From assembly GCA_021413865.1 (NCBI GenBank), contig JAIOPN010000049.1:62001-126000 (forward strand): 64,000 bases of DNA, read 5' to 3'. The stretch comes from Planctomycetota bacterium (lineage in GTDB: Bacteria > Planctomycetota > Phycisphaerae > Phycisphaerales > Phycisphaeraceae). This document shows positions 20,069 to 64,000 of this stretch, piece after piece. The first letter of the stretch is position 1. The number at the start of each line of letters is the position of its first letter. A model generated the notes under the pieces. That model was not told the origin of the DNA and ran no database searches. It saw only the letters and a list, made by a program, of their open reading frames with translations. Made by a program: the position numbers and the translations under genes.

Positions 20069-21613
20069 TTATTTTTTCTGCCCGGGCTTGTCCTCGTCTT
20101 CGCCCTTGAAGGGGGGGACATTTTGCAGCGCCTTGATGAAGCTTTCGTCGGGCTTTTCGCCGGACTCGGAGGCTTTCAGCGGCGGCGGTGTGACGGTTGG
20201 GGCGGGGGCGATCTTGGCGGTGACCGGCGGTGGGGGCGGTGGAGCTTCCACGGCTGGCGGAGCAGTGGTTAGCGGTGCCGGCACTTCCGTGGGTGCGATT
20301 GCCTGCGGCGCGATTGGGGCGGGGGCTTGCTGTGCCGGGGGCGGGGCGGGCTCGGCTATCGATACGTGTTGTGGCGTGGGCGCCGGTACTGGTGCGGGCG
20401 CGGTGACGGGCCTGCTCTGGGTTCCGGGCGAGATCAGCGTTTCCAGAACCGAGAGATCGGGCTTGGGTTCATTCTTTGTCGTTGCGGTTGCGATCGGTGC
20501 CGGGGGGGCGGGTGGTGGGCTGAGATTTTCGATGACCTGATTGATCGGTTGCGGCGGCGCGAGCACGGGCGCGGGTGTCGCGGCCGGTGCGGCGGGCGGG
20601 GGTTCGGCCCGCATTAGTTGCCGGATGACGGCATCACCTTCGGGGGCCTCGGAGTGGACGAGGAACTCGGCGAGCTTGCCGTCCGAGCGGGCGCCGCTGG
20701 TGGCCAGCCCCTCGGCCTGGGCGCGCTGCACAATGTCGAGGAAGAGCGATTCGAGTTTCTGCCGCGGTTGTTCGATGCTGGTGAGCCGCTTGCCGCGGGC
20801 GGTCAGCACTTCCTTGATCTGACGGATCGTTTCGTCGTCCAGGGTTTCGGTCTGGAGCGTCGTCGTGTCGTGGCGGGTGAGGAGCGAGGCGACGGTGCCC
20901 TCGGCGCGGACCTTCCCGCCGTACATGATGGAGACACGGTCGCAGACGTCCTCGACGTCGGCCAGCAGGTGGGAGCAGAGGAGGATGGTTTTCCCGCGTG
21001 CGGCGAGGGCGACGATGATGTCCTTGATCTGTCGGGTGCCGATGGGGTCGAGACCCGTGGTGGGTTCGTCGAGGATGAGGAGCTGCGGGTCGTTGATGAG
21101 CGCCTGCGCCAGGCCGATGCGGCGCTGCATGCCCTTGGAGTATTCGCCGACGGGGCGGCGCTGCACGGCCTCGAGGCCGACCATCTCCAGCAACATGTCC
21201 ACGCGGCGGCGGCGCTGCTCGCGGCCCTGGTGGAAGAGGCGTGCGTAGTAGTCGAGGGTCTCGCGGGCGTTGAGGAAGCGGTAGAGGTACGACTCCTCGG
21301 GGAGGTAGCCGATGATTTTTTTCGTGGCGACGTCTTCGGGCGGCTTGCCGAAAACGGCGATGCGGCCGGAGGTGGGTTTGAGCAGGCCGAGCATCATCTT
21401 GATGGTGGTTGACTTGCCCGAGCCGTTGGGCCCCAGCAGGCCGAACACCTCGCCCTGGCGGATATCCATGTCGATCGCATCGACGGCGCGGACGCGGTTG
21501 CGGAGCCAGAAGTCGCGGAAGATTTTGGAGAGCGACGCGCAGCGGACGACGACCGGGGCGTCGGGGGGAGGGGGCGTGCGTGCGGGCGTGGTGTCAACGG
21601 GCGTGGCGGTCAT
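20069..21613 (-). CDS. ABC transporter ATPase with Pro/Ala-rich tail
   Basis: This 514-residue protein has a standard ABC ATPase in residues about 20-325: Walker A GPNGSGKS (61-68), Q-loop region, signature YSKGMQRR, Walker B LLILDEPTTGLDP and a switch histidine (LLCSHLL). It then carries an unusual ~190-residue low-complexity tail, very rich in Pro and Ala, ending in a charged segment. It pairs with the ABC-2 permease downstream and possibly also with the divergent permease at 26370. A TAGAAT hexamer 6 nt before its ATG suggests its own promoter inside the cluster. The tail may be a flexible tether, but its function is unknown. Confidence 0.88.
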   Translation of the reverse strand: MTATPVDTTPARTPPPPDAPVVVRCASLSKIFRDFWLRNRVRAVDAIDMDIRQGEVFGLLGPNGSGKSTTIKMMLGLLKPTSGRIAVFGKPPEDVATKKIIGYLPEESYLYRFLNARETLDYYARLFHQGREQRRRRVDMLLEMVGLEAVQRRPVGEYSKGMQRRIGLAQALINDPQLLILDEPTTGLDPIGTRQIKDIIVALAARGKTILLCSHLLADVEDVCDRVSIMYGGKVRAEGTVASLLTRHDTTTLQTETLDDETIRQIKEVLTARGKRLTSIEQPRQKLESLFLDIVQRAQAEGLATSGARSDGKLAEFLVHSEAPEGDAVIRQLMRAEPPPAAPAATPAPVLAPPQPINQVIENLSPPPAPPAPIATATTKNEPKPDLSVLETLISPGTQSRPVTAPAPVPAPTPQHVSIAEPAPPPAQQAPAPIAPQAIAPTEVPAPLTTAPPAVEAPPPPPPVTAKIAPAPTVTPPPLKASESGEKPDESFIKALQNVPPFKGEDEDKPGQKK

Positions 21614-21619
21614 GCGTCT

Positions 21620-21625
21620 ATTCTA
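21620..21625 (-). promoter_or_regulatory. -10 hexamer of the ABC ATPase gene
   Basis: TAGAAT on the minus strand ends 6 nt before the ATG at 21613. The gap to the upstream hflK-like stop is only 40 bases, so this would be an internal promoter. Confidence 0.45.
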
Positions 21626-21653
21626 AGGGCGTCATTTGGCGCTGGCGTGTTGC

Positions 21654-23024
21654 TTACGGATTGCCGCGTGGCGCGGGGGATTCGCCGCGTTTCAGGCCGG
21701 TGCCTGAGGTGCTAAGGCCCCGAGCCTTGAGGTCGTCCATCTGGCGCTCGTGCGTCACGTTCGGGTCGCGGTTGAGCTTGATCCACGCGTGGCCGGGCGG
21801 GACGTACATCGTCTCCACGTCGCCGGTCAGGAGGTCGCGCCGCGCCTCCTGCCAGAGCCGGTTAATGACGATGCGGCGGCGGGCGGGGTCGTTCTTGAAG
21901 GTGTCGTAGTAGTTGCGGAACCTGCTGGCGTCGGCCTCGATCTGGGCGCCGATCGAGGAGCGATACGACAGCGCCTCGTTGATCACCTGTGCCGCCGCGC
22001 CGCTGATCGGAACGGTTCCGAACTCCGCGCCGGTGTTGAGGGTGCCGAACGCCTCATCGATCTGTGCCTCGCGCTTCGCGATCGCGGCCTGGTCGCCGGC
22101 GACCAGGTCTTTCTCGTAGGCGCGGATCATGCCGAGCAGCGGCTTGTGCGCTTCGCCCGCGGCCGCGCCCAGGATAGTCGCCCGGTCCTGCAATGCCTTC
22201 TCGATGTCGCGGGCCTTGTTGCTCTCGGCGCGGGTGACGGCCTGGAAGGCGTCACGCACGGCCATCGGCGGCGTGGGCTGGGCGATGGAGAGTTGTTCCA
22301 CCCGCACGCCGGTCTCCAGGGCGTCGAGCGTCTGCTGGATGTTGCGGATCGCCTCCTCGCGGTCGATCTGGCCCTTGACCACTTCGTCGGCGGTCAGCCT
22401 CGCGACGGAGCGGAGGATGCCCGCCTCCGCCGCCGAGTGCACGACCGCCAGCGCGGCCTTCTCGTCGCCCACGTTTTTCAGGTACGCCACCGGGTCGATG
22501 ACCTTGTAGCTCAGCGACCAGCGTGCGTGGACGATGTTGGCGTCGCCGGTGATCAGCGAGCCGTCGCGCTCGGGGTTGAGCGCTTTGGGTGTGGAGGCGC
22601 CGGCGGTGGCGAGCTGATCGAGGGTCAGGCCCACCTGATCGGGGGTCAGGTTGAACCAGAACTCGGTCGCAAGGTCGAACTGCTGCACCGAGGTGGGGAT
22701 GCGCACGACCTGCTCGATCGGGAAGGGCAGGGCGAAGTGGGGCCCGCCGGGGTTGATCACCTGTTTGCCGGGTTCGCCGACGATCTGCCCGAAGCGGAGG
22801 CGGACCGCGACCTCCGTCGAAGGGACGCTGAAGATATTGCTGCAGAGGTAGAACACGACGACGATCAGCATCGCGACCTTGAGGACCCAGAAGCTCACGC
22901 GCAGCGCGTCGTTGAGTGACTGCTGCGCCGGGTCGAACTCTTCCTCCAGGGGCGCACCGTGATCGTGGTCATGGTCGTGACCATGGTGGTGGTGGTGCTC
23001 GAAGGGGTTGCGGGTCTCGGCCAT
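21654..23024 (-). CDS. HflK-like SPFH protein with His-rich N-terminus
   Basis: This 456-residue SPFH/Band 7 protein has one membrane helix (about 48-68, VAMLIVVVFYLCSNIFSV). The SPFH domain follows (STEVAVRLRFGQIVGE, then PFPIEQVVRIPTSVQ), then an Ala/Glu-rich helical C-terminal region. HflK and HflC form a large periplasmic cage around the FtsH protease in proteobacteria. The N-terminus is cytoplasmic and starts with an unusual metal-binding-like stretch (HHHHHGHDHDHDHG, about 10-23). hflC lies immediately upstream on the same strand, with a 40-base gap. ftsH is not in the window. Confidence 0.85.
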   Translation of the reverse strand: MAETRNPFEHHHHHGHDHDHDHGAPLEEEFDPAQQSLNDALRVSFWVLKVAMLIVVVFYLCSNIFSVPSTEVAVRLRFGQIVGEPGKQVINPGGPHFALPFPIEQVVRIPTSVQQFDLATEFWFNLTPDQVGLTLDQLATAGASTPKALNPERDGSLITGDANIVHARWSLSYKVIDPVAYLKNVGDEKAALAVVHSAAEAGILRSVARLTADEVVKGQIDREEAIRNIQQTLDALETGVRVEQLSIAQPTPPMAVRDAFQAVTRAESNKARDIEKALQDRATILGAAAGEAHKPLLGMIRAYEKDLVAGDQAAIAKREAQIDEAFGTLNTGAEFGTVPISGAAAQVINEALSYRSSIGAQIEADASRFRNYYDTFKNDPARRRIVINRLWQEARRDLLTGDVETMYVPPGHAWIKLNRDPNVTHERQMDDLKARGLSTSGTGLKRGESPAPRGNP

Positions 23025-23064
23025 GTCTTATCCGTGATGCGTGGGCGGGAACGGTACGCGGGGT

Positions 23065-24087
23065 TTACTTGTTGTCCGACTTGCCCTCTGGCTTCCACGT
23101 CTCGTTGAAGTGGTCCAGCGGCGAGAAAATCTGCGTGGCGTCGAGGATGAAGGTGGTCCTAAAGGCGAGCATCTTCCTAAGGCTCTCGATCTGCGAGAGG
23201 AAGATGGCGAACTGCTCGTCCTTCTCGAACTCCTTGTACGACGCGGCCGCCTTGCGGTCGCCCTCGGCGCGGATGCTCTGCGCCCTCCGCTCGGCGAAGG
23301 CGAGGATTGTCTTCTTGGCGCTCTCGGCCTCCTCGCGGATGCTGCTGGCCTGGGCGTCGCCGGTTGATTTGGCGTCCTGCGACAGCCGGTCGCGCGTTGC
23401 GCGCATCCGATTGAACACCGACTCGGTCACGCGCTCGGGCACCATAAGCCGGCGGATCCCCACGTTCTCCACCGTGATGCCGTAGTGCGTCTTGCTGTCC
23501 GCCAGCCGCTTGCGGACCTGCGCCAGGGCGTCGTCCTGGACCTGTTTGAGCTTGAGCTTGGACGGGTCGGTGTTGACCAGTTGGTTGAAGTCGTATTTGC
23601 CCAGCACGCCGCTCATTTCACTCAGCAGCGACTGGAGCTGCTTGCGGGCCTCGTCCACGTTTCTGAGGCTGACGAAGAAGGCGTGCGGGTCTTCGATGCG
23701 CCACGCCAGGTCGGTCTTGATGACGACGCTGAAGCTGTCGCGGGTCTGGTATTCCTGGAGCGGGCCCTCCAGGAGCTGCACGCGGCGGCTGTAGTACTGG
23801 ACCTTCTGGAAGGGGTAGAACATGCGGAAGTAGAGGCCCGGTCGGTCGCGCAGGCTGCCCGGTTCGATCAGCGTGCCGTCGGGGTTGCGGGCGAGGGTGC
23901 CCACCGCCTGCGGGGAGCCGTCGGCATTGGTCGCGCGGTCGCCCTCGGTGTTGTACTTAGGCGGGGTGGCGCGGTCGAAGGTCGTCAGCACGGCGACCTC
24001 GTCGTAGCGCACCTGGAAGAAGACCGTGTACGCCGCCAGCACCAGAACAATGATGACGCCCAGCACGAATGTGAATCGGTTTTTCAT
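23065..24087 (-). CDS. HflC-like SPFH protein
   Basis: This 340-residue SPFH protein has one N-terminal membrane helix (about 5-24). VRYDEVAVLTTFDRATPP starts the Band 7 domain, and PGLYFRMFYPFQKVQYYSRRVQLLEG follows. A helical coil around residues 220-290 (EEAESAKKTILAFAERRAQSIRAEGDRKAAASYKEF in part) is typical of HflC. Residues about 44-75 form a short insertion (NTEGDRATNADGSPQAVG) not usual in the family. It probably forms hetero-oligomers with the adjacent HflK-like protein. The gaps to its neighbours are 40 and 48 bases. Confidence 0.87.
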   Translation of the reverse strand: MKNRFTFVLGVIIVLVLAAYTVFFQVRYDEVAVLTTFDRATPPKYNTEGDRATNADGSPQAVGTLARNPDGTLIEPGSLRDRPGLYFRMFYPFQKVQYYSRRVQLLEGPLQEYQTRDSFSVVIKTDLAWRIEDPHAFFVSLRNVDEARKQLQSLLSEMSGVLGKYDFNQLVNTDPSKLKLKQVQDDALAQVRKRLADSKTHYGITVENVGIRRLMVPERVTESVFNRMRATRDRLSQDAKSTGDAQASSIREEAESAKKTILAFAERRAQSIRAEGDRKAAASYKEFEKDEQFAIFLSQIESLRKMLAFRTTFILDATQIFSPLDHFNETWKPEGKSDNK

Positions 24088-24135
24088 CGCACGTCTCTCG
24101 TCTTTCCGCTCGGGGCCAAGTCGGCAGCGCCCCGG

Positions 24136-26244
24136 TCATTTCGGCTTCATCAGGCTCTCAACGGTGGATTGCGCGTCGGTCAGGTCGATGTCGAACGTCG
24201 GCGAGGTCTGGTTATCGACGGTGGTGACGATCTTGCGAGCCCCGGCCATGCCTTCCGCCAGCACCTGGAGGTAAGACCTCATGCGGTAGTACTCGGGGGC
24301 GTTCCTGTACGCGAGCAGGTCGGAGCTGAACCGGTCCGCCTTGGCACGCTGGGTGATGGCACGCTCCCAGCGGTAGGCACGCGCTTCATAGATCAGCTTG
24401 GCGGCGTTGCCCCGCGCCCCGGCGAAGAGCTCCTCGACTTCCTGCTCCCGGCTGGCGACCTGGCGTTCCTTCTCCTTCACGGCGTCGGCGTTCTGCGGCG
24501 TGGCGGCGCGCAGGGCATTAAGCTCGTTCTCGGCGTCGGAGAGCTCGCCGATCGCCTTGAGCAGGCCGCGGGCACGCTCGGTGGAACCCGAGACCTCGGC
24601 GAGGGCGCGGATGGCGTAGGCCCCCGCGATCTCGATGGCACTCTGTTTCTGCTGGAGCGCGGAGACCTGGCCCTGGAACGACTCGGCGACCTGTTTCTCC
24701 GAAGGCGGGTGCACACCCTCAAGGGTCACCAGGATGACCTGCAGACCCAGGCCCGCACGGTCGGCGGCGGCCTGGACTTTGTCTCGCAGCTCATCGCCGG
24801 CGTGAATACGCCCCTGCCCGATGATCGTGTCGATGTCACGCAGCGCCAGGTGGTCGCACAACAATTGCTCCGAGAGCGACGTGAGCATCTCGAGCGGGTC
24901 GTCGTTGTTGCGGACATAGGCGAGCAGGTCGTGGATGCGGTACTGCACGTTCATCTGCAGGCCGACCATTGAGACCGGCGGCACCCGGATGCCCTCGGCC
25001 AGTTGGGAGTTCTGGTCATCCACGAACGGGGTCGGCGCGGTGAGGAGGTACTCCTCTTTTTCCTTGCTGTGCGGCGTGGTCCAGAGCAGCGACACCACCT
25101 GGCCGCTGGCCTCGTCCGTCTTGAAGCCGCCGCGCGCTGAGCCGACGCTGATCTGCTGCACCCGCCCGATGTCGAATTTCTGCGTGGTGTCGAACGGCCA
25201 GGGGAGCTTGAAATGGAGGCCCGGCCCCAGCGGCTCGCCGATTATCCGGCCCGACCGCAGCACCAGCGCCTGCTCCTGCGGCTGGACGAGGACGATCGAA
25301 GTCATCGCCAGCAGCACCGCCAGGCCCAGGAGAAAGAGCGGGGTGACGGCCTTGCCCAGGAGGCGGTAGAACCATGAGCTGGAGACCTCGAAACCGAACT
25401 GGTAGTTGATCGCATCGGAGAGCGCCTTGGCCAGCGACTTGGGGCTGGTGAGCAGGCCCAGGATGCGGCTGTCGAAGGCGGCGCGGGTGTGTTCGCCGGG
25501 TCGGCGGGGGCGATAGACGTTGAGCAGGAAGTTGAAGAGGACCTCGAGCCCTTGCAGGATCATGACGCCCGGGACGACCATGCACATGGCGCCCAGCGGG
25601 CCGTCGTTCTCGAAGGCGGAGAACGCCAGCCCGACGGCCAGCAGGAAGGCGACCAGGGCGTTGCCCATGAGGAAGCCGGCCCCGCCGCGCAGCGCCTGAT
25701 ACTCGGCGATCCGGGTCATGCCCGACTCGTAGCGGGCGACGATGAAGCCGACGAAGACGATCGCGATACAGGCGACGGCTGCGGCGATGGGGCTGACGTC
25801 GTTGCGTGCCTCCCCGACGAGCGTGTAGTTTTGTAAGAGGGTCAGGGCCTTGTAGAAGTAGATGCCGCCCAGGGTCAGCAGATAGGCCGCGGTGACCAGG
25901 CCGGCGATGCCCATGCCGACGCGGTAGATGGAGTCGAGGCGGCGGCGGGCGATGCGCAGGTCGTCGGCGGCCTCGTTGAAAAGGGCGTTGGATTTGGTTT
26001 CGGCGCGGGCGAGTTGCTCGGCCTCCAGCGCCTCGGCCCGCTCGAGCCGATGCTGGTGGAACAACATCAGCAGGACGATCCAGATGGGCAGGCCGCCCGC
26101 CAACTGCCAGGTCGCGGCGTAGAGGGCCGGGCTTTGAACGGCCAATCCCGCCAGCGCCATGACGGCGGTAAGGACGACCTGGACGACCAGCCCGAACAAC
26201 GCCGCGTTAGCGGCCCGTCGGTAGGTCTGAAGGTCCTGAGCCAT
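24136..26244 (-). CDS. Polytopic membrane protein fused to an SPFH domain
   Basis: This 702-residue protein combines about six N-terminal membrane helices (residues about 15-260) with an HflK-like SPFH region (about 300-680). A last helix at about 300-320 (AVTPLFLLGLAVLLAMTSIVLV) leads straight into the SPFH start (QPQEQALVLRSGRIIGEPLGPGLHFKLPWPFD). The C-terminal part has the usual coiled helices (QKQSAIEIAGAYAIRALAEV). A polytopic domain in front of SPFH is unusual and suggests a membrane scaffold. The ATG at 26244 is used; an upstream in-frame ATG at 26289 would lie inside the divergent promoter region. It is the first gene of the minus-strand cluster. Confidence 0.82.
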   Translation of the reverse strand: MAQDLQTYRRAANAALFGLVVQVVLTAVMALAGLAVQSPALYAATWQLAGGLPIWIVLLMLFHQHRLERAEALEAEQLARAETKSNALFNEAADDLRIARRRLDSIYRVGMGIAGLVTAAYLLTLGGIYFYKALTLLQNYTLVGEARNDVSPIAAAVACIAIVFVGFIVARYESGMTRIAEYQALRGGAGFLMGNALVAFLLAVGLAFSAFENDGPLGAMCMVVPGVMILQGLEVLFNFLLNVYRPRRPGEHTRAAFDSRILGLLTSPKSLAKALSDAINYQFGFEVSSSWFYRLLGKAVTPLFLLGLAVLLAMTSIVLVQPQEQALVLRSGRIIGEPLGPGLHFKLPWPFDTTQKFDIGRVQQISVGSARGGFKTDEASGQVVSLLWTTPHSKEKEEYLLTAPTPFVDDQNSQLAEGIRVPPVSMVGLQMNVQYRIHDLLAYVRNNDDPLEMLTSLSEQLLCDHLALRDIDTIIGQGRIHAGDELRDKVQAAADRAGLGLQVILVTLEGVHPPSEKQVAESFQGQVSALQQKQSAIEIAGAYAIRALAEVSGSTERARGLLKAIGELSDAENELNALRAATPQNADAVKEKERQVASREQEVEELFAGARGNAAKLIYEARAYRWERAITQRAKADRFSSDLLAYRNAPEYYRMRSYLQVLAEGMAGARKIVTTVDNQTSPTFDIDLTDAQSTVESLMKPK

Positions 26245-26369
26245 ACGTGAGATTCCCAAAAACCGCTCGGGTTGCCCGCCCGCGTCCATCCGCCGATCAA
26301 AAGGGCGTCTATAAACGTATCATGTTGGGGCGTCGATCCAGCCCCGCTCGGTCCCCGACAGGCGAACCC

Positions 26370-53945: not shown

Positions 53946-54133
53946 GGCGCGGGATGTGGAAGACCTGTCGCGGCGTTGCGGGCGTGGTCGAAAACCAGTA
54001 AAAGGTTGCAGTCCCGCGCTCGGGTCATAAAGAGTCGGCCGGTCGGTGGTTGTCTTTTGTCAGGGGATGGCGTGGTCATCCCGTCCGGTTACGACGCCCG
54101 GGTTGCCGCGCTGACGCAGCGAGTAAGCCGTTC
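53946..54133. other. Divergent region between cimA leader and cytochrome gene
   Basis: About 190 bases without a gene. TTGCAG at 54006-54011 with CATAAA at 54026-54031 (14-nt spacing) is a poor candidate promoter for the cytochrome gene. No repeat or operator was recognised. Confidence 0.3.
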
Positions 54134-57100
54134 ATGCCTGTACCCACAGAAACCTTCTGGAATATCAAGAAGCTCAACGTGGTCTTCGCGGCCAGCGCGG
54201 TGATCCTGTTGGGTTCGTTCCTCCTGTTGATCAAAGAGGACCAGAACGTCGCCTGGCGCGGGTATCAAAAGGACGCGCGGGTGTGGGACGCCGCGATGAC
54301 GACCGACGCCATCAAGTACGCCCTGAGCGCGTCGGACAAGGCGGAGTTGGAGAAGATCAAGACCGACATCGCACAGATCGGCGGCGAACTGGAGAAGGAC
54401 GAAAAGCTCAAAGAGCTGAACAAGAAAAAGGCTGACATCGAGGCCGGGATCAACATCGCAACGATGCCCGCCGCGACGATTAAGGGTCAGATCACCCCGC
54501 TGTCGCAATTGGTCGAGAAGGCCACCCTCGAGTTCGGCGCGGATCACGCTAAGACCAAGAAGCTGATGGCCGAGCTGAACGCGGCCAAGCAGAAGTCGGA
54601 CAAGGAAGAGGCGACGCTGGCCGCCCTGGACCGGCAACTGATCGAAACCAATAGCGCGATCGAGAAGGAGAAATCTCGCCTCAGCGCCCTGACCAAATCC
54701 CGCGACGACAAGCTCCGCCGCCTCAACTCGCTCGAGGAACGCCTGGCAAAGGTCAACCCGACCGGCGCGGCGTGGCTCGGCGAGCAGATCCGCAACGCCC
54801 CGCTCCAGGACTGGTTCAACCCCTCCCTGGCCGTGCAGCAGGTGGTCGTCCCCGACGTCCGCACCGACTTTAACTTCCTCACCACCGAGACAATCGATCG
54901 TTGCAGCACCTGCCACGTCAACATCGACAACCCGCGGTTCGAGGAGAAGGAGATCGTCTCCTTCGCCGAGCGACAGGTGGCGATGGGCGACGGTCAGGAC
55001 GTGGCGACGATCGACCCGCACAAGCCGGTCGTGATGCTCGGCTTCTGGGTCAACGCCGCGAAGCTGCGCGTCGCATCGGACGCGTACGGCATGCCTGCGT
55101 TGGCCAAGGGGGTAGAGGCTCTCAAGGCCGCGGCGCTGGACCGCGTCAAGGAACTCCGCGCCAAGGCGGGCATGTCGCCGCTGGCCGACAACGCGGACGT
55201 CGTCGCCGAGATCGAGTCGCTGCTCAAGCAGGGCGAGAGCCGCGACAAAGAAGAGAAGATCGCCGTCACCCGCGCCGAGTGGTACGCCCCGGCGGCCTAT
55301 TTCTTGACGGACCTGAAGGGCCTGCTTGAGAAGCAACTGAGCAAGGGCGAGTACCGCGAGCTGCGCGACCTCTACCGCCAGGAACTCATCGGGAGCTACA
55401 ACCACCTCCGCACCAACTCCTCGCAGGGCCTGCCGGCGCTGAGCGCCAACCCCGTGCTGATGGCACACCCGCGCCTCGATCTTTACGCCGACGCGGACTC
55501 GAAGCACCCCATGAAATCGATGGGCTGCACCGTGTGCCACGAGGGCTCGGGTCAGGAGACGGAGTTCAAGCACACCGCCCACACGCCGCGCGAGGTCTGG
55601 GTTGACGAGAAGACGGGCTCCCCGGTGCCGGCGTTCCTGATTCGACCGGCGGAGCCGAAGGTTCCTGTCGCGATGACGGTCTCCGCCGCACAGGTCCACG
55701 AGGCGCCGCGGGCTACCGCGGTGAAAGAGGGTGAAACAGGCGAACATGGCTTCACCTTCGACGACCTGAACCTGGCCAACCCGAACAACCCCAAGCCCTT
55801 CGCCCCGGACTCGGGCCACATCGAAGAGACCGCCGCCTATGTCTCTCCCGCCGCGGCCCGGGGCGAAAAGCCCCGCGGCGTCGTCCGCCAGGAGGCCTAC
55901 TGGACCAAGGCCTACCACTGGGAGCAGGTCCACTACATGCACTGGGAAAAGCCGATGAACTCGCAGGAGTTCATCGAGTCCAGTTGCAACAAGTGCCACA
56001 CGCAGGTGTTCGATCTGAAGGAATCGGCGCCCCGGCTGTTCGAGGGCCGCAAGCTCTTCGCCCAGCTCGGCTGCGCGAACTGCCACGCGGTTGATGCGGT
56101 CAAGGACCACCTCGACGTCAAGAAGGTCGGCCCGAGCCTCGTGCACGTGAAGGAAAAACTCTCCCCCACGATGATGTCGTCGTGGATCTGGGCGCCCAAG
56201 GCCTTCCGCCCGATGTCGCGGATGCCGCACTACTTCATGCTGGAGAACAACTCCACGCCGGTGGACATTCTCCGCACGCGAACCGAGGTCGCGGCGATCA
56301 CGCACTACCTCCAGCACTCGACGCCCGCCGAGGGCACCCCCGAGTACAAGCCCGAGCCGCCCCCCTCTACCCCCGGCGACGCCAAGGCCGGCCGCGCGGT
56401 ATTCAACTCCGTCGGCTGCCTGGCGTGCCATACCAACATGGCCGAGTCGGGTGAGAAGTGGATCGCCGAAGACCTGATCAAACGCACCGGCGTGTCGGCG
56501 GACGAGGCGAAGAAGCAGTACGACGCGATGGGCTACAACCAGCGGCACTGGTACGCGCTGGAGCACATCCCGGAGAAGCTCACGATCGTCGGCCCGGAGC
56601 TGTCGGGCGTGGGCACCAAGCTCAAGGCCGGCCGCACCGTGGATCAGGCCCGCGCGTGGGTATACGACTGGGTGCGCAATCCGCGCCACTACTCCAGCTA
56701 CACAATCATGCCCAGCCTGCGCCTCAGCGAGCAGGAGGCCAACGACCTGTCCGCCTATCTGCTCGCCCAGGAACGGCCGGACTACACGCCGGTTGACTTC
56801 ACGAATCTCGACGGCGACGGCAAGGCGATGCTGAACCAGATCGTCGGCGCCCTGCCCGACCCCGCGGGCAAGGTGAGCCTGCAATCGACGCAGGACGAGA
56901 AGCTCGAGTACGTCGGCCGGAAGATGATCGCCAACTACGGCTGCAACGGCTGCCACCTGATCAACGGCTTCGAGAACGCCGCCTCTGCCTGCGCCGAGCT
57001 GAACGAGTGGGGCCTGAAGGACCCGCACAAGCTGGACTTCGGCTACTTCGACCACGCCTACACCGCCGAGCGCAAGAACCGCATCGAGGTCTGGAAGGTC

Positions 57101-59512
57101 GCGCACGAGGGCCTCGCCTCCGACGCGCCGCACGTCAACTACCACAGCGCCGAGGCGCCCGAGGGCAAGCCCGCCGAGCTGCGAAAGGTCGCCATCCAAT
57201 GGGAGGAGATGGACCTGGAGCGCCGCCCGTGGCTGTACAACAAGCTGCACAACACGCGCATCTACGACCGCGGCCGCAAGCTTTTTGACTCCACGCAGGA
57301 CACCCCCGAGAAGGTCGCCGAGGCCGTCAAGGCGGGCAGCATTGACTTGGGCCGTCCATACGACAAGATCAAGATGCCCAAGTTCTTCCTCGCCGACGAC
57401 CAGGTCAAGGCCCTGGTGACGTTCGTGACCAGCGTGCGCAAGCCGCTGGTGAGCGACACGATCCAGCACAAGACCTATTCGGAGTCCCGGCTGCGCGTGG
57501 CGAGAGGCCGACAGGTGGCGACCGTGCTGAACTGCTACGGCTGCCACAACATCGAGGGTAACGAGGTCGCGATCCACAAGTACCTGGACGTCTTCAGCGA
57601 AGACGGCTCCGAGGACATGGCCAAGCTCAACGCGGCCGCGCCGCCGCGGCTGGTCGGCCAGGGGTCGCGCACCCAGCCGGACTGGCTGCACTACTTCCTC
57701 CGCAGCCCCTTCCCGCTCCGCCCGTGGCTCAAGGTCCGCATGCCCAGCTTCCCGTTCCACGACGAGCACGGCTCGCTCCTGGTGAGCGGGGCGGTGGACT
57801 ACTTCGCCGGCGCGAGCCAGGTGATGGCCGACGAGATCTCGCCGTGGGTCACGCAGATCGAAACCTACCGCGCGACGAACAAGGACGACGCCGACTGGTA
57901 CAAGGCCTCGGCCCTGGCCAAGCCGACCGATCAGCTCGCGGCGTTCATGGTGAAGGACGACCTGAACCACGCACGCGACTTTGACCCGCGGCAGGCGACG
58001 CAGGAAGACCTGCGGACGACGTGGGAGGGCGTGCTCAAGAGCGCTCAGTTCCTGACCAAGCTGAACCACGTTGAGTACCCGTTCCCCGTCACACCGCGGC
58101 CGAACCCCGACCCCGAGCGGTTCGCGCGGGGCAAGGCGCTCTACAGCGAGTTGAAGTGCTACCAGTGCCACGCGCTGGGCGATGAATCGCAGTTGCTGGC
58201 GTCCTGGAAGGCGACCTACGGCGAGTCCGCGGCCAAGGCCGCGCCGGCGCCGGCCGAGCCCGAGGACGCGGGCTACGGCGAGGAGCCGGCCAAGACCGGC
58301 GGCGATGAAGGCTACGGCGAGGAAGCCCCCGCCGCGGCGCCCAAGCCGACCGGGCCGGTCTATACCGCGCCGAACCTGGCCAACGTCGGCCGACGCCTGC
58401 AATGGAACTGGGTCAACAACTGGTTCCAGAACCCCGCGACCATCCAGCCGGGCACCAGCATGCCCCAGTGGTTCCCCGACGGCGTCTCGGCTTTCGACAA
58501 GTACCCACCCGAGCAGAAGGACCGGCTGCACTCCATGTACGGGTACACCGGCAAGGACCAGATCGCGGTCCTGATGGACTTCGTTTACGCCGCGGGCCTG
58601 CGGAACTACACCTACTTCCCGCCGGACTGGAAGGCGCCCGTCGGCGGCGCTGCCGAGGCCCCGGTTGAGATCAAGCCGATGGCTGCGCCGCCCGCAGCCA
58701 AGCCGACCGAAGAGAAGAAGGCCGAGCCCGCCGCCAAGGTGCCGACGGAACCGTCGGCCACGCCGGCTGCCACCCCGACGCCGGCCGCAACCGCGCCGCC
58801 CGCCGAGGTCCGCACCGAGCCGGACCATTCCACCATCGTGTTGAACGACGGAAAGGCTCCGTTCGAGGGAACCCGCGTGGTAGGCCTGGTGAAGTACGAC
58901 GGCAAGCTCCCGCGCCGCACCATCATCCGCATGGACGCCGACGCCCGCTGCATGGCCCAGCACAAGACCCGCCCGGTCGGCCAGGACCTGATCGTCAACC
59001 CGGACAAGACGCTGCAGAACGCGTTCATCTATGTGAGCCAGGGCCTGGAAGGCAAGATCGACGCCAAGCCGACCAACAAGGCCGAGTTAGACCAGAGCGG
59101 CTGCCTCTTCCTCCCGCACGTGCAGGGCGTGGTGGTGAATCAGGAACTCTTGATCCAGAACAACGACCCGACGATGCACAACGTGCACATGACCAGCCAG
59201 AAGAACGGCACGTTCAACATGAGCATGCCCGCGCCGGGGATGAAGGACGTTAAGAAGTTCGGCAAGCCCGAGATGGGCGTGTTGTTCAAGTGCGACGTCC
59301 ACCCCTGGATGCAGGCGTACCTGTACGTGATGCCGCACCCGTTCTTCGCGGTATCCGACGTGGAGGGGCGGTTTGAGATCAAGGGTCTCCCGCCCGGCCA
59401 GTACCAGTTGACGGCGATCCATGAGGACAAGGCGATCCCGCCGGTGACCTTCGCCGTGACGGTGGAGGCCAACACGTCCGTACGCTCGGACGTAACCTTG
59501 GTCCAAAAATGA
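54134..59512 (+). CDS. Giant octahaem c-type cytochrome with C-terminal cupredoxin-like domain
   Basis: This 1,792-residue protein has one membrane helix (about 15-35), then RGYQKDARVWD and a long coiled coil (about 60-225). Eight CxxCH haem motifs start at residues 257, 465, 618, 647, 762, 937, 1134 and 1342. A low-complexity linker follows near 1375-1410 (GYGEE twice) and a Pro/Ala linker near 1515-1565. The last ~220 residues resemble a blue-copper-like domain: His1682 (MHNVHM) and Cys1720-x2-His1723-x2-Met1726 (FKCDVHPWM). Next come a paralogue of this domain, coxB and coxA. It could therefore carry electrons from quinol oxidation to the oxidase outside the inner membrane. The ATG at 54134 is chosen by the MPVPTETFWNIKKLN start. 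Confidence 0.85.
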   Translation: MPVPTETFWNIKKLNVVFAASAVILLGSFLLLIKEDQNVAWRGYQKDARVWDAAMTTDAIKYALSASDKAELEKIKTDIAQIGGELEKDEKLKELNKKKADIEAGINIATMPAATIKGQITPLSQLVEKATLEFGADHAKTKKLMAELNAAKQKSDKEEATLAALDRQLIETNSAIEKEKSRLSALTKSRDDKLRRLNSLEERLAKVNPTGAAWLGEQIRNAPLQDWFNPSLAVQQVVVPDVRTDFNFLTTETIDRCSTCHVNIDNPRFEEKEIVSFAERQVAMGDGQDVATIDPHKPVVMLGFWVNAAKLRVASDAYGMPALAKGVEALKAAALDRVKELRAKAGMSPLADNADVVAEIESLLKQGESRDKEEKIAVTRAEWYAPAAYFLTDLKGLLEKQLSKGEYRELRDLYRQELIGSYNHLRTNSSQGLPALSANPVLMAHPRLDLYADADSKHPMKSMGCTVCHEGSGQETEFKHTAHTPREVWVDEKTGSPVPAFLIRPAEPKVPVAMTVSAAQVHEAPRATAVKEGETGEHGFTFDDLNLANPNNPKPFAPDSGHIEETAAYVSPAAARGEKPRGVVRQEAYWTKAYHWEQVHYMHWEKPMNSQEFIESSCNKCHTQVFDLKESAPRLFEGRKLFAQLGCANCHAVDAVKDHLDVKKVGPSLVHVKEKLSPTMMSSWIWAPKAFRPMSRMPHYFMLENNSTPVDILRTRTEVAAITHYLQHSTPAEGTPEYKPEPPPSTPGDAKAGRAVFNSVGCLACHTNMAESGEKWIAEDLIKRTGVSADEAKKQYDAMGYNQRHWYALEHIPEKLTIVGPELSGVGTKLKAGRTVDQARAWVYDWVRNPRHYSSYTIMPSLRLSEQEANDLSAYLLAQERPDYTPVDFTNLDGDGKAMLNQIVGALPDPAGKVSLQSTQDEKLEYVGRKMIANYGCNGCHLINGFENAASACAELNEWGLKDPHKLDFGYFDHAYTAERKNRIEVWKVAHEGLASDAPHVNYHSAEAPEGKPAELRKVAIQWEEMDLERRPWLYNKLHNTRIYDRGRKLFDSTQDTPEKVAEAVKAGSIDLGRPYDKIKMPKFFLADDQVKALVTFVTSVRKPLVSDTIQHKTYSESRLRVARGRQVATVLNCYGCHNIEGNEVAIHKYLDVFSEDGSEDMAKLNAAAPPRLVGQGSRTQPDWLHYFLRSPFPLRPWLKVRMPSFPFHDEHGSLLVSGAVDYFAGASQVMADEISPWVTQIETYRATNKDDADWYKASALAKPTDQLAAFMVKDDLNHARDFDPRQATQEDLRTTWEGVLKSAQFLTKLNHVEYPFPVTPRPNPDPERFARGKALYSELKCYQCHALGDESQLLASWKATYGESAAKAAPAPAEPEDAGYGEEPAKTGGDEGYGEEAPAAAPKPTGPVYTAPNLANVGRRLQWNWVNNWFQNPATIQPGTSMPQWFPDGVSAFDKYPPEQKDRLHSMYGYTGKDQIAVLMDFVYAAGLRNYTYFPPDWKAPVGGAAEAPVEIKPMAAPPAAKPTEEKKAEPAAKVPTEPSATPAATPTPAATAPPAEVRTEPDHSTIVLNDGKAPFEGTRVVGLVKYDGKLPRRTIIRMDADARCMAQHKTRPVGQDLIVNPDKTLQNAFIYVSQGLEGKIDAKPTNKAELDQSGCLFLPHVQGVVVNQELLIQNNDPTMHNVHMTSQKNGTFNMSMPAPGMKDVKKFGKPEMGVLFKCDVHPWMQAYLYVMPHPFFAVSDVEGRFEIKGLPPGQYQLTAIHEDKAIPPVTFAVTVEANTSVRSDVTLVQK

Positions 59513-59658
59513 GCTTGCGGCGGTTCGTTCGGGACCGGGGAAAAACGGACTGCCAGTGGATACGGGTTCGACAATCCAATAGGATACAAATCACTCCCGT
59601 GATCGCAGGGTAGCGCCACGGGTGATTGCAAGAGTTCCAGCTAACCGAGGAGCCGGTC
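59513..59658. other. Gap with an imperfect inverted repeat
   Basis: Contains an imperfect inverted repeat around 59590-59626 (ATCAC ... CCGTG with its complement CACGGGTGAT). It may be a weak terminator or processing site between the giant cytochrome and the cupredoxin gene. Confidence 0.35.
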
Positions 59659-60447
59659 ATGAAAACGGATTGGATGCGTCTAAGTGTCGTTGCGATGATT
59701 ACATGCGTCGGGCTGCTAAGCCCCGTTGCTCCTGTTCACGCCGAGGAAAGCGCGGCGAACATTGGCGGCGTGCACGACGGCAAGGGTGGCAGCATCACCG
59801 GCACCGTGAAGTTCAGCGGTGATCAGAAGAAGCCCAAGATCAACCGTGACATCGTCAACGACGCCTACTGCGGCAAGCAGCACAAGGACCCGGTTCTCGA
59901 CGAGACATTCGTTTGGGGCGACAACGGCACGCTCCAGAACGTGCTCGTCTATGTGAGCAAGGGCCTCGAGGGCAAGACCCTGCCCGCGCCCGAGGCCAAG
60001 GCTGAACTCGACCAGATCGGCTGCGTCTACGTCCCGCACGTTGTGGGCGTGGTGGTCAACCAGCCCCTGACGATCCTCAGCAACGACGAGACGCTGCACA
60101 ACGTACAGGCCAATTGCAAGTCCAACACCCCGTTCAACGAAGGCATGCCCGCCAAGGGCATGAAGCTGAGCAAGAAGTTCACCAAGCCCGAGTTGGGCAT
60201 GGTCTTCAAGTGCAACGTGCACGGCTGGATGACGGCGTACGTCCACGTCATGTCGAACCAGTTCTTCGCGGTCACGCAGAAGGCCGGCACGTTCGAGATC
60301 AAGGGCCTCCCGCCCGGCGAGTACGAGCTGAGTGTGTGGCACGAGCTCAAGGCCTTCCAGCCCGACCACCAGACGATCACGGTCAAGGTTGAAGAGGGCA
60401 AGGCGTCCGACGTGACGTTCACCTACTCGCCTCCCGCCAAGAAGTAA
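59659..60447 (+). CDS. Secreted cupredoxin-like protein, paralogue of the cytochrome C-terminus
   Basis: This 262-residue protein has a signal peptide (MRLSVVAMITCVGLLSPVAPVHA) cleaved near residue 28. The rest aligns end to end with the last ~220 residues of the upstream cytochrome. The shared parts are the cysteine-containing YCGKQHKDPV, NVLVYVSKGLEGK, IGCVYVPHVVGVVVNQ, His147 (TLHNVQA) and Cys185-x2-His188-x2-Met191 (FKCNVHGWM). Both end in a carboxypeptidase-regulatory-like beta-sandwich (FEIKGLPPGEYEL). The Cys-His-Met set suggests type 1 copper and periplasmic electron transfer. The ATG at 59659 has GAGGAG 7 nt upstream. Confidence 0.82.
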   Translation: MKTDWMRLSVVAMITCVGLLSPVAPVHAEESAANIGGVHDGKGGSITGTVKFSGDQKKPKINRDIVNDAYCGKQHKDPVLDETFVWGDNGTLQNVLVYVSKGLEGKTLPAPEAKAELDQIGCVYVPHVVGVVVNQPLTILSNDETLHNVQANCKSNTPFNEGMPAKGMKLSKKFTKPELGMVFKCNVHGWMTAYVHVMSNQFFAVTQKAGTFEIKGLPPGEYELSVWHELKAFQPDHQTITVKVEEGKASDVTFTYSPPAKK

Positions 60448-60486: not shown

Positions 60487-60492
60487 TATGAT
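60487..60492 (+). promoter_or_regulatory. -10 hexamer of coxBA
   Basis: TATGAT, 67 nt before the coxB TTG start. No convincing -35 is visible. Confidence 0.4.
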
Positions 60493-60559
60493 GCCGCCGG
60501 TGCAGACATCGCTCAGGGGCGTGTCGGCACACCATACGATTCCATCCAAGGAGCGAGCC

Positions 60560-61471
60560 TTGCGATCGCCAAGACCCACGCACGCTGTTTACGGTTTCCT
60601 GGTCGCCGCCGTGCTGATGCTAACGGCTTCGGCGGCGTTGGCGGGTGAGACCAGCTTCCGCCCGAGTTACTGGCTGCCCGAGAACGTCTTCCCACCCGCC
60701 ATGGTCGTGGACAAGATTTTCTACGGCATCCTCTACCTGACGCTGGTTGTGAACATCCTGGTCTTCATCTTCATGGCGATCTTCCTCGTGAAGTTCCGCC
60801 ACCGCGAGGGCCGGCACGCCCGCTTCATCCATGGCAACAACAGGCTCGAGACGGTCTGGACGATCGTCCCCGCCGTCATCCTGGCGATGACCGCCGTGCT
60901 CAGCGAGTCCTCCTGGTCGAACATCAAGAGCCCCTCGGCCAGCATGGCGACCGACCCGAGCGTGATGCACATCGAGGTCATCGGCCGGCAGTTCGCCTGG
61001 TATTTCCACTACCCCGGCAAGGACGGCAAGCTCGGCGTGCGCAACCCGACCAAGGTCAACCCGCTCAGCAGCATCCCCGAGGAACTGGTGGGCCTGGACC
61101 GCAACGACCCCGACTCCGCCGACGACCTGCTCACCACCCGCCTGGTCGTCCCGGTGAAACAGAAGGTTTACGCCAACGTGACCAGCGTGGACGTGATCCA
61201 CAGCTTCTTCCTGCCCAACTTCCGCATCAAGCAGGACGCGATGCCCGGCCTCCGGGCGCGGGTGTGGCTCGAAGCGACCAAGACCAGCGCCGAGGTCATC
61301 GGCACCAAGCCCGACGGTACGCCCAAGCCCTTCGACATCGTCTGCGCCGAACTCTGCGGCCAGGGCCATTACACGATGCGCGGTGAGCTCTACGTCGTCT
61401 CCCCCGCTGAATACGAGAAGTTCATCGCCGAAGAGGCCGGGATGCTCACCCCCGCCGGCGAAGCGTACTGA
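60560..61471 (+). CDS. coxB: Cytochrome c oxidase subunit II
   Basis: Subunit II accepts electrons at its CuA centre. The 303-residue protein has a signal peptide (to about ALAGE, 29), two membrane helices (about 50-78 and 92-116), and a periplasmic cupredoxin domain. The CuA ligands are His214 (DVIHSFFLPNF) and Cys262-x3-Cys266-x3-His270-x2-Met273 (CAELCGQGHYTM). There is no fused cytochrome c at the C-terminus, unlike many caa3 enzymes. The TTG at 60560 has AAGGAG 7 nt upstream and gives a proper signal peptide. Earlier in-frame starts at 60488 and 60500 were judged less likely. Confidence 0.93.
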   Translation: MRSPRPTHAVYGFLVAAVLMLTASAALAGETSFRPSYWLPENVFPPAMVVDKIFYGILYLTLVVNILVFIFMAIFLVKFRHREGRHARFIHGNNRLETVWTIVPAVILAMTAVLSESSWSNIKSPSASMATDPSVMHIEVIGRQFAWYFHYPGKDGKLGVRNPTKVNPLSSIPEELVGLDRNDPDSADDLLTTRLVVPVKQKVYANVTSVDVIHSFFLPNFRIKQDAMPGLRARVWLEATKTSAEVIGTKPDGTPKPFDIVCAELCGQGHYTMRGELYVVSPAEYEKFIAEEAGMLTPAGEAY

Positions 61472-61558: not shown

Positions 61559-64000
61559 ATGTCCACCCACGACAACGATCACGGACACGATGACCACGGC
61601 GGCGGCCACCACGGCCCGACCCACTTCTGGTCCAAGTACGTCTTCTCCACAGACCACAAGATCATCGGCATCCAGTTCCTCTTCTCCGGCCTGCTGTTCG
61701 TCATCCTCGGCGGCCTGCTGGCGCTGGGGGTCCGCTATCAGCTCGCCTGGCCCATGCAGGACGTCCCCTACGCCAAGCTCCTCCCCGGCAAGATGACCAG
61801 CAGCGCCCCTGAGTCGAACCTCGCGCTCTGGAACAACGGCCACCCGGTCACGCTCAAGGAAGATCAACTCGTCAACGGCGCGAAGATCCCCGCCGGGGCA
61901 CAGGCGTTCCTGCACGGCTTCCCCGAGCGGCTGGCCGTCACCATCCAGCCCGGCACGGTGGTCAAGGACGACGCCGGCGAGCGCACGCTCACCGAGCCGC
62001 TCAACGCCAGAGTCGATCGCTCCGAGGTGATGGGTGATTACAACAACCACAAGACCGAGGCCCGCGCCATCCCCGGTACGGTCGTGACCCTCGATGAGAA
62101 GGGTGGCGAGCACCGGGTGACGCTCGAGGCGACCGAGTACATGGAGCCAGGCGCCACGACGCCGACGCGTTCCACCGGCCATATCCTCTTGGCGATCCGC
62201 AGCGCGGACACCGTGGTCGCGCTGAATATCCCGGCGCAGAAAGTCCCCGCCCAGCCCGAGCCGGGCCAGGCCCAGATCGATGTCCCCGCGGCCTCCGCCC
62301 AGGCCGTGCCCGCCGCCAACGTGGAGTACACCAAGGAGACCCTCTCCTCCCAGGCCTACCTCCAGCTCTTCACCATGCACGCGTCGATCATGATCTTCTT
62401 CGTGATCATCCCCACCCTCGTGGGCGCGTTCGGCAACTTCGTCGTGCCGATCATGATCGGCGCCCGCGACATGGCGTTCCCCAAGCTCAACGCCGTCTCC
62501 TTCTGGATCAGCATCCCCGCCGGCCTGCTCATGCTCATCAGCTTCTGGACCGACGCGGGCTCGGCGTTCGGCGGGTGGACCAGCTACCCCACGCTCTCCA
62601 CCGCCGCCTACGCACCCAACATCGGCACCACCCTCTGGATCATCGGCGTGGGCCTGGTCGGCTTCTCCTCCGTCATCGGCGCCCTCAACTACGTCACCAC
62701 GATCATCAACATGCGTGCCCCGGGCATGGGTATGTTCCGCATGCCGCTCACCGTCTGGTCGATCCTCATCACCGCGACGCTGGCGCTCTTCTCCACGCCC
62801 GTGCTCACCGCCGCCATGGTGCTCCTGCTCCTGGACCGCACACTGGGCACGATGTTCTTCTCGCCGACCCTGCACGTGATGGTCAACGGGGTGGACACCG
62901 TCCGCATCGCCGGTGGTCAGCCGCTGATGTGGCAGCACCTCTTCTGGTTCTACTCCCACCCGGCGGTGTACATCATGATCCTGCCCGCCATGGGCATCGT
63001 CAGCGACGTGCTCTCGACCTTCTCGCGCAAGCCGGTCTTCGGCTACAAGCCCATGGTCTTCGCCATCTGCGGCATCGCGGGCCTGGGCTTCATCGTCTGG
63101 GGCCACCACATGTTCCAGTCCGGCATGAACCCCGTGCTGGGCACAACGTTCATGGCCTCGACGATCATGATCGCCGTCCCCTCGGCGATCAAAACCTTCA
63201 ACTGGCTGGGCACCCTCTGGGGCGGCAACATCAAGTTCACCCCCGCCATGCTCAACGCCCTGGCCTTCGTGAGCATGTTCGTCATCGGCGGCCTCTCGGG
63301 CATCTTCATGGCCTCCGCCCCCGTTGACGTGTACATCCACGATACCTACTTCATCGTCGCCCACATCCACTACGTCCTCTTCGGCGGCTCCATGTTCGGC
63401 ATCTTCGCCGGCATCTACTACTGGTTCCCCAAGATGTTCGGCAGGCAGCTCAACCAGAAGTGGGGCGTCATCCATTTCTGGATGAACATCATTGCCTTCA
63501 ACGGCACCTTCTTCACCATGCACATCCTGGGCGTCGGCGGCCACCCGCGCCGCTACGCCTCGATCATGGAATACCCCACCCTCCAGCACCTCCAGCCGCT
63601 CAACGTCTTCATGACCATCTGTGCCATGATGCTGGGCATGGCGCAGGTCCCGTTCTTCTACAACTTCTTCACCTGCCTCCCGCGCAAGCTCGGCCGGGCG
63701 ATGGCCGCATTCTTCATCATCATGCTCACCGCGCCGGCGGTCATCGGCCTGTCCGCGTGGGACATGTGGGCCGGTTCGGGCACGTTCCTCGGCCGTCAGT
63801 TCTACGCCCTCGTGGGCATGGTCCCCTCCGCCGGCGACGTCGCCGCCCACTTCAGCCAGACCCAGGTCACCCTGGGGTACATCTTCCTGCTGGGCGCGAT
63901 CATCGTGATCTCGGGCCTGATGTTCCGCAGCTACACCACCGGCCCGCGCTGGACGATCGCCTGCAGCGTTCTCCCGCTGCTCGCCCTGATCCTGACGATC
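61559..64000 (+). CDS. coxA: Cytochrome c oxidase subunit I with large insertion (3' end outside window)
   Basis: Haem-copper oxidase catalytic subunit; 814 residues are visible and the frame is still open at the edge. The N-terminus is His/Asp-rich (residues 4-22). Helix I follows near 40-58. A soluble stretch of about 200 residues (about 66-265) precedes helix II with the haem a ligand His274 (FTMHASIMIFF). Later come His467 and Tyr471 (YSHPAVYIM), CuB His516-His517 (WGHHMF), and the haem ligands His602 and His604 (VAHIHYV). Ala469 replaces the D-channel Glu, and the preceding Tyr-Ser fits A2-type oxidases such as Thermus caa3. The insertion lies on the periplasmic side, where normal enzymes have ~40 residues. 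The ATG is 87 bases after coxB. Confidence 0.93.
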   Translation, partial: MSTHDNDHGHDDHGGGHHGPTHFWSKYVFSTDHKIIGIQFLFSGLLFVILGGLLALGVRYQLAWPMQDVPYAKLLPGKMTSSAPESNLALWNNGHPVTLKEDQLVNGAKIPAGAQAFLHGFPERLAVTIQPGTVVKDDAGERTLTEPLNARVDRSEVMGDYNNHKTEARAIPGTVVTLDEKGGEHRVTLEATEYMEPGATTPTRSTGHILLAIRSADTVVALNIPAQKVPAQPEPGQAQIDVPAASAQAVPAANVEYTKETLSSQAYLQLFTMHASIMIFFVIIPTLVGAFGNFVVPIMIGARDMAFPKLNAVSFWISIPAGLLMLISFWTDAGSAFGGWTSYPTLSTAAYAPNIGTTLWIIGVGLVGFSSVIGALNYVTTIINMRAPGMGMFRMPLTVWSILITATLALFSTPVLTAAMVLLLLDRTLGTMFFSPTLHVMVNGVDTVRIAGGQPLMWQHLFWFYSHPAVYIMILPAMGIVSDVLSTFSRKPVFGYKPMVFAICGIAGLGFIVWGHHMFQSGMNPVLGTTFMASTIMIAVPSAIKTFNWLGTLWGGNIKFTPAMLNALAFVSMFVIGGLSGIFMASAPVDVYIHDTYFIVAHIHYVLFGGSMFGIFAGIYYWFPKMFGRQLNQKWGVIHFWMNIIAFNGTFFTMHILGVGGHPRRYASIMEYPTLQHLQPLNVFMTICAMMLGMAQVPFFYNFFTCLPRKLGRAMAAFFIIMLTAPAVIGLSAWDMWAGSGTFLGRQFYALVGMVPSAGDVAAHFSQTQVTLGYIFLLGAIIVISGLMFRSYTTGPRWTIACSVLPLLALILTI

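Follow-up and report, generated by a model that had tools for sequence, protein, structure and literature searches.

Complex III usually delivers its electrons through a subunit with one or two haems and then a small carrier. In anammox planctomycetes of the Kuenenia type, Rieske/cytochrome b complexes occur with multihaem cytochromes, and these complexes appear to be the nearest known kind to the system considered here. The window we analysed, a 64,000-nucleotide stretch forming a portion of contig C55 in a 4.37-Mb planctomycete genome, encodes a giant multihaem protein next to a cytochrome oxidase operon. We consider it likely, at a probability of roughly 0.8, that this protein, with its eight haems, serves a planctomycete b6-type bc complex as its cytochrome c partner, in place of cytochrome c1 or f.

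Several described systems share part of this plan. The anammox complexes (Kuenenia-type, and the anammox-like L131 among our loci) resemble it in a b6-type cytochrome b with subunit IV, a Rieske protein, a KAPWY motif and a multihaem cytochrome c in the place of c1; they differ in having a hexahaem and a separate 588-aa octahaem protein, whereas the planctomycete b6 loci carry a single chain that includes five class I domains and is linked to aa3 genes. In the anammox-like cluster (L131:9846-13005), a 586-aa gene of another kind sits between the Rieske and b6 genes. The actinobacterial bcc-aa3 supercomplex is similar in that a c subunit tied to the bc complex (QcrC, a dihaem cytochrome cc) takes over from soluble cytochrome c in supplying aa3; QcrC, however, has two haems and a model length of 253, and the eight-haem giant, at 36.3 bits against an NCBIfam cut-off of 200, is not a member. 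Alternative complex III (ACIII) with its linked aa3 oxidase is likewise a multihaem quinol:oxidase link, and close relatives without the giant encode ACIII-type NrfD. A search across the window's genome found neither NrfD nor ActC, the quinol site there would be that of a b6-type Rieske complex, and the giant was rejected as an ACIII relative on the absence of NrfD. Finally, cytochrome b6f shares the split into b6 and subunit IV, and the Rieske protein of the bc genes on contig C66 of this genome is nearest the PetC type by best profile; those genes differ in having no adjacent cytochrome f, a putative octahaem partner, and KAPWY rather than PEWY as the Qo motif.

The gene of the giant (1,792 aa) runs on the forward strand, as do the parts of the giant and the operon genes placed below, from an ATG at 54134 to a stop at 59512. 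Its GC content by codon position (0.62/0.43/0.91) matches the expectation for a high-GC gene and thus supports a real gene; an overlapping reverse-strand open frame of 1,624 aa (54089-58963) probably results from GC-rich third positions. Assembly artefact was rejected as an explanation on the recurrence of the gene in 17 loci of named records, all of them metagenome-assembled genomes (MAGs) and labelled mostly Phycisphaeraceae, Phycisphaerales or Planctomycetota. The first-pass annotation had described one chain with a membrane anchor, a coiled coil, eight CxxCH sites and a copper-like C-terminus, and sequence, profiles and fold comparison bear this out. Hydropathy gives a single hydrophobic segment, the anchor (residues ~13-34, 54170..54235), in an N-terminus conserved in the family alignment; with one membrane helix and no quinol-binding membrane domain, the giant was discarded as a stand-alone quinol oxidase. 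The coiled coil (residues ~59-208, 54308..54757) is recognised by SMC/Rad50 and EibD/gp26 profile matches. The eight CxxCH motifs extend over 1,090 residues from first to last; shuffles of the same composition contain 0.008 such motifs on average, and none of 2,000 had more than 1. Pfam assigns class I cytochrome c domains and a carboxypeptidase-regulatory domain, and no cytochrome c1 or f family appears among the Pfam and NCBIfam matches, which comprise general class I and multihaem domains only.

Family and phylum alignments allow the haem chain to be read in some detail. Haem 1 (CSTCH, C257, 54902..54916), invariant in 19 sequences, is probably bis-His; haem 2 (CTVCH, C465, 55526..55540) is flanked by the additional histidines His445, His458 and His483; and haem 3 (CNKCH, C618, 55985..55999) follows. 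The remaining five each have a candidate Met ligand: haem 4 (CANCH, C647, 56072..56086; also seen by Pfam) has M697 in an MP motif, haem 5 (CLACH, C762, 56417..56431) M859, haem 6 (CNGCH, C937, 56942..56956) M1081, haem 7 (CYGCH, C1134, 57533..57547) M1203, and haem 8 (CYQCH, C1342, 58157..58171, placed by both alignments) M1443. Across 19 octahaem sequences (10 Phycisphaerales proteins and nine from seven other families, 25-51% identical), all eight sites align one-to-one, and the three histidines and five methionines are invariant in 19/19; in the window's giant each of these methionines lies within a Met-Pro motif. The simplest reading is that three haems are probably bis-His ligated and are followed by five His/Met domains. 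Two side observations concern relatives: haem 8 is CX4CH in two of them (CMAGACH and CMAGQCH; L049:8854-14106 and L021:277-4967), and a PDZ domain lies between haems 5 and 6 of the octahaem protein in a complete f32 genome (L125:12138-16301).

Predicted models of the giant have low overall confidence (pLDDT 53 for residues 225-1240 and 60 for 600-1792) and are reliable only in the cupredoxin domain and in some of the class I domains. Cupredoxins filled the fold-match list, the haem part being without a match among the matches listed, and a sequence search of the PDB found no relative of the whole protein. The C-terminal domain itself (residues ~1649-1734, 59078..59335) is supported by the family alignment, the model and its fold matches, and superposes on plastocyanin over 84 residues (Z 12.5, rmsd 1.5 Å) and on amicyanin (Z 11.8). 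Its C-x2-H-x2-M motif corresponds to C1720, H1723 and M1726, with H1682 as the fourth predicted ligand, and family-wide conservation of each of the four is 90% or higher. The predicted domain has the cupredoxin fold and the His, Cys, His and Met ligands of a type-1 copper domain, and its motif spacing is that of amicyanin. A carboxypeptidase-regulatory (transthyretin-like) beta domain (59336..59509; PF13620, with fold matches to carboxypeptidase D/N) ends the chain.

The first-pass annotation had placed the giant just upstream of coxB-coxA. The position is right, with one gene intervening: a free cupredoxin-like protein of 273 aa (59626..60447; open reading frame, profiles and sequence search) with a signal-like N-terminus, a paralogue of the giant's C-terminal domain at 48% identity. 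coxB (60488..61471) carries the CuA motif C-x3-C-x3-H-x2-M, which reads CAELCGQGHYTM and classes the adjacent oxidase as CuA-type (aa3). coxA (1,003 aa; 61559..64000) continues past the window end to window-equivalent position 64570, and both cox genes were identified from open reading frames and profiles. The operon order is giant, 273-aa cupredoxin-like protein, coxB, coxA, ctaA, ctaB, coxC, a coxD-like gene and an ABC transporter, with the names past coxA assigned by reading the sequence. Elsewhere in the window, two Band 7/SPFH proteins adjoin an ABC transporter ATPase gene at 20072-26289.

CoxA of the window (61559-64000, L004:8559-11570) is unusual in two respects: some 200 additional residues separate TM1 from TM2, and the C-terminus is prolonged by a long membrane extension. 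Among giant-bearing members of the window's own family, CoxA is mostly 870-1,160 aa and its match to the COX1 profile begins only near position 31, whereas in ACIII genomes the principal aa3 gene encodes about 560-670 aa; within this family, the extra length goes with the giant and not with ACIII. The insertion is a possible docking site. Going further, one may picture an octahaem chain, with a fused copper domain at its end in Phycisphaerales, that permanently hard-wires the b6-type complex III to aa3, docks on the ~200-residue periplasmic CoxA insertion and dispenses with soluble cytochrome c in a large part of the phylum, a proposal that we regard as tentative and on balance doubtful. A permanent III-IV bridge of this kind would imply one stable complex.

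Where the quinol is oxidised is suggested by the rest of the genome. The first-pass annotation saw no bc1 or ACIII gene, and the same holds for 44-64 kb of the window and the L004 sequence downstream. Next to coxA there is also no complete bc1 complex or ACIII with its own cytochrome c, a neighbour that would count against the built-in wire which that annotation had proposed. Its suggested search for a quinol reductase succeeded, at a distance: contig C66, not the neighbourhood of the giant, holds a cluster of a HEAT protein, a ferredoxin-Rieske fusion, cytochrome b6 and subunit IV. The b6, subunit IV and Rieske components of a b6-type bc complex are thus present in the genome, and no haem-c gene (cytochrome c1 or f) lies beside them. 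Genome-wide there is one PF13631 cytochrome b, and one of six Rieske-domain matches adjoins it. Judged from this gene content, quinol oxidation in this genome is done by the orphan b6-type complex. The wire reading consequently needs amendment: comparative genomics keeps the giant on a quinol-to-aa3 path, in the place of c1 and soluble cytochrome c, but complex III is not missing, as a Rieske/b6 complex is encoded on C66 and octahaem genes occur across the phylum in its cluster. Two features of the C66 cluster may be recorded here. The Rieske protein (L014:11248-12321) has an N-terminal 4Fe-4S ferredoxin motif, CIVCDACETDCP, of a type kept in several family members and not found in the loci from other families; and the membrane-anchored HEAT-repeat protein (L014:12394-13557), which perhaps has an assembly role, heads the bc cluster in most relatives read.

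The C66 bc genes score above cut-off for PF00033, PF00032 and PF00355, and the KAPWY Qo motif is found in b6/subunit IV throughout the loci. At finer resolution, b6 and subunit IV fall nearest ExtP/ExtQ and b6f, below cut-offs, the closest NCBIfam names being those of the ExtP/ExtQ/ExtS set (selenite/tellurite reduction). This resemblance could place the giant in an extracellular or metal- or selenite-reducing path. We think that very improbable: no curated cut-off is reached (ExtP 256.7 bits against 290, ExtQ 54 against 150, ExtS about 30 against 100), the window's family has the giant within an aa3 operon, and in several other families the cluster includes cox genes, linking the system to genes of oxygen reduction.

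Since the bc genes are on another contig, the partnership in the window's genome rests on comparative evidence, beginning with close relatives. In 41 genomes from the family and order of the window, 14 with the giant, an orphan b6 accompanies it in 14/14 and occurs in 0/27 of those without (Fisher 2.8e-11, uncorrected for relatedness). The orphan b6 proteins of the 14 are 75-92% identical, against 30-47% for the remaining cytochromes b in the set. Within the window's family, ACIII-type NrfD shows the reverse pattern, 0/10 with the giant versus 14/15 without; G016 was counted as non-ACIII, its higher-scoring NrfD differing in score class and lying far from coxA. Seven family members keep the order giant, cupredoxin-like gene, coxB, coxA and ctaA. 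In family f5, the giant stands alone in four members, and other NrfD genes are present.

A wider survey extends the association to the phylum. A search of 392 Planctomycetota genomes with b6 matched 177, and 32 of the matched loci, picked by b6 and not by cytochrome, were read. The one locus from the window's own family (G220) has the same split arrangement. Outside that family, 26 of 31 loci, spanning 24 families, have an octahaem homologue inside the bc cluster, to which the gene is not adjacent in the window's own genome. The homologue lies directly after subunit IV in 25 of the 26 and upstream of Rieske in the other, and is often followed by one or two separate cupredoxin-like genes and coxB-coxA. 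Lengths range from 986 to 1,704 aa outside the window's family and reach about 2,200 aa in Phycisphaerales; the f31 homologue has just seven CxxCH. No such homologue occurs in the stretch read at five loci (f28, f64, f54 twice and f50), and the f50 locus has a hexahaem protein and a 588-aa octahaem protein instead. Phycisphaerales are monophyletic in both the octahaem and the b6 tree, and the distances in the two are correlated (r 0.80, or 0.77 outside Phycisphaerales; 0/2000 permutations), in part because of shared species history. Octahaem genes in bc clusters across the phylum, together with the one-to-one haem alignment, argue that the giant would be the c-type partner of the bc complex.

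Some of these data would also suit a collecting role, in which the giant gathers electrons from a number of periplasmic donors, including the bc complex, and delivers them to the aa3 oxidase. Eight haems are more than a link from bc to CuA requires, the gene stands by itself in f5, and the f50 locus indicates that multihaem proteins of other kinds can serve a b6-type complex. We nevertheless find this unlikely, because the position directly after subunit IV in 25/31 loci, the perfect co-occurrence with the orphan b6 and the parallel trees all tie the giant to the bc complex.

The onward step from the giant is where two versions of the partnership diverge. Loci from outside Phycisphaerales encode their cupredoxin-like proteins as genes of their own. 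In Phycisphaerales, the octahaem chain has a cupredoxin fused to it and is encoded apart from the bc genes; in the window's own family, a second cupredoxin-like gene stays separate and the giant stands in front of the aa3 operon. The most economical history would be a split from the bc genes and a cupredoxin fusion in Phycisphaerales. The giant could take electrons from the bc complex and have soluble proteins (a class I cytochrome c or the 273-aa cupredoxin-like protein) as its main acceptors, with no direct wire to the oxidase, a variant compatible with the octahaem partnership. A free, signal-bearing cupredoxin-like protein encoded right after the giant speaks for it, as does the gene order in most other families, where cupredoxin-like proteins encoded on their own, in some cases with a dihaem cytochrome, come between the octahaem gene and coxB, while the fusion in Phycisphaerales suggests tethered transfer; we put this variant somewhat short of even odds.

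Alongside the observed anatomy, conservation, gene order, co-inheritance and co-occurrence, we infer physical binding, an order of electron flow and its rates for the octahaem partner of the b6-type complex. The complex would comprise Rieske, cytochrome b6, subunit IV, the HEAT protein and the octahaem cytochrome c, the last held in the membrane by its N-terminus with its coiled coil extending into the periplasm. Quinol would be oxidised at the Qo site of b6/subunit IV, with electrons passing to Rieske and then into the haem chain, in which three bis-His haems are probably followed by five class I cytochrome c domains with His/Met ligation. From there they may reach the type-1 copper domain fused to the end of the Phycisphaerales giant, the free 273-aa cupredoxin-like protein, or both, and through the copper domain(s) the CuA of CoxB and the aa3 centre.

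A 2024 survey reported ACIII in Phycisphaerales and no Phycisphaerales genome with a bc1 complex (PMC11266412), and a b6f-type Rieske has been mentioned in Planctomycetes (PMC4013037). The former statement can now be qualified: in the genomes studied here under the labels Phycisphaerales or Phycisphaeraceae, a b6-type complex is present with its genes divided between two loci, an arrangement that standard annotation may miss. In the open literature, with few subscription papers covered, no description of the octahaem subunit was found; the complex III variant of which it is probably a part is real and widespread in the phylum, and "undescribed" is a provisional label with respect to that literature. 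A PDB sequence search found no solved structure of the family, which makes it a clear candidate for structure determination in cultured relatives. In at least 24 planctomycete families and in Phycisphaerales, the place of c1 and carrier appears to be filled by an eight-haem chain of about 1,000-2,200 residues, and such a partner would explain how planctomycetes without ACIII could supply electrons to their oxidase.
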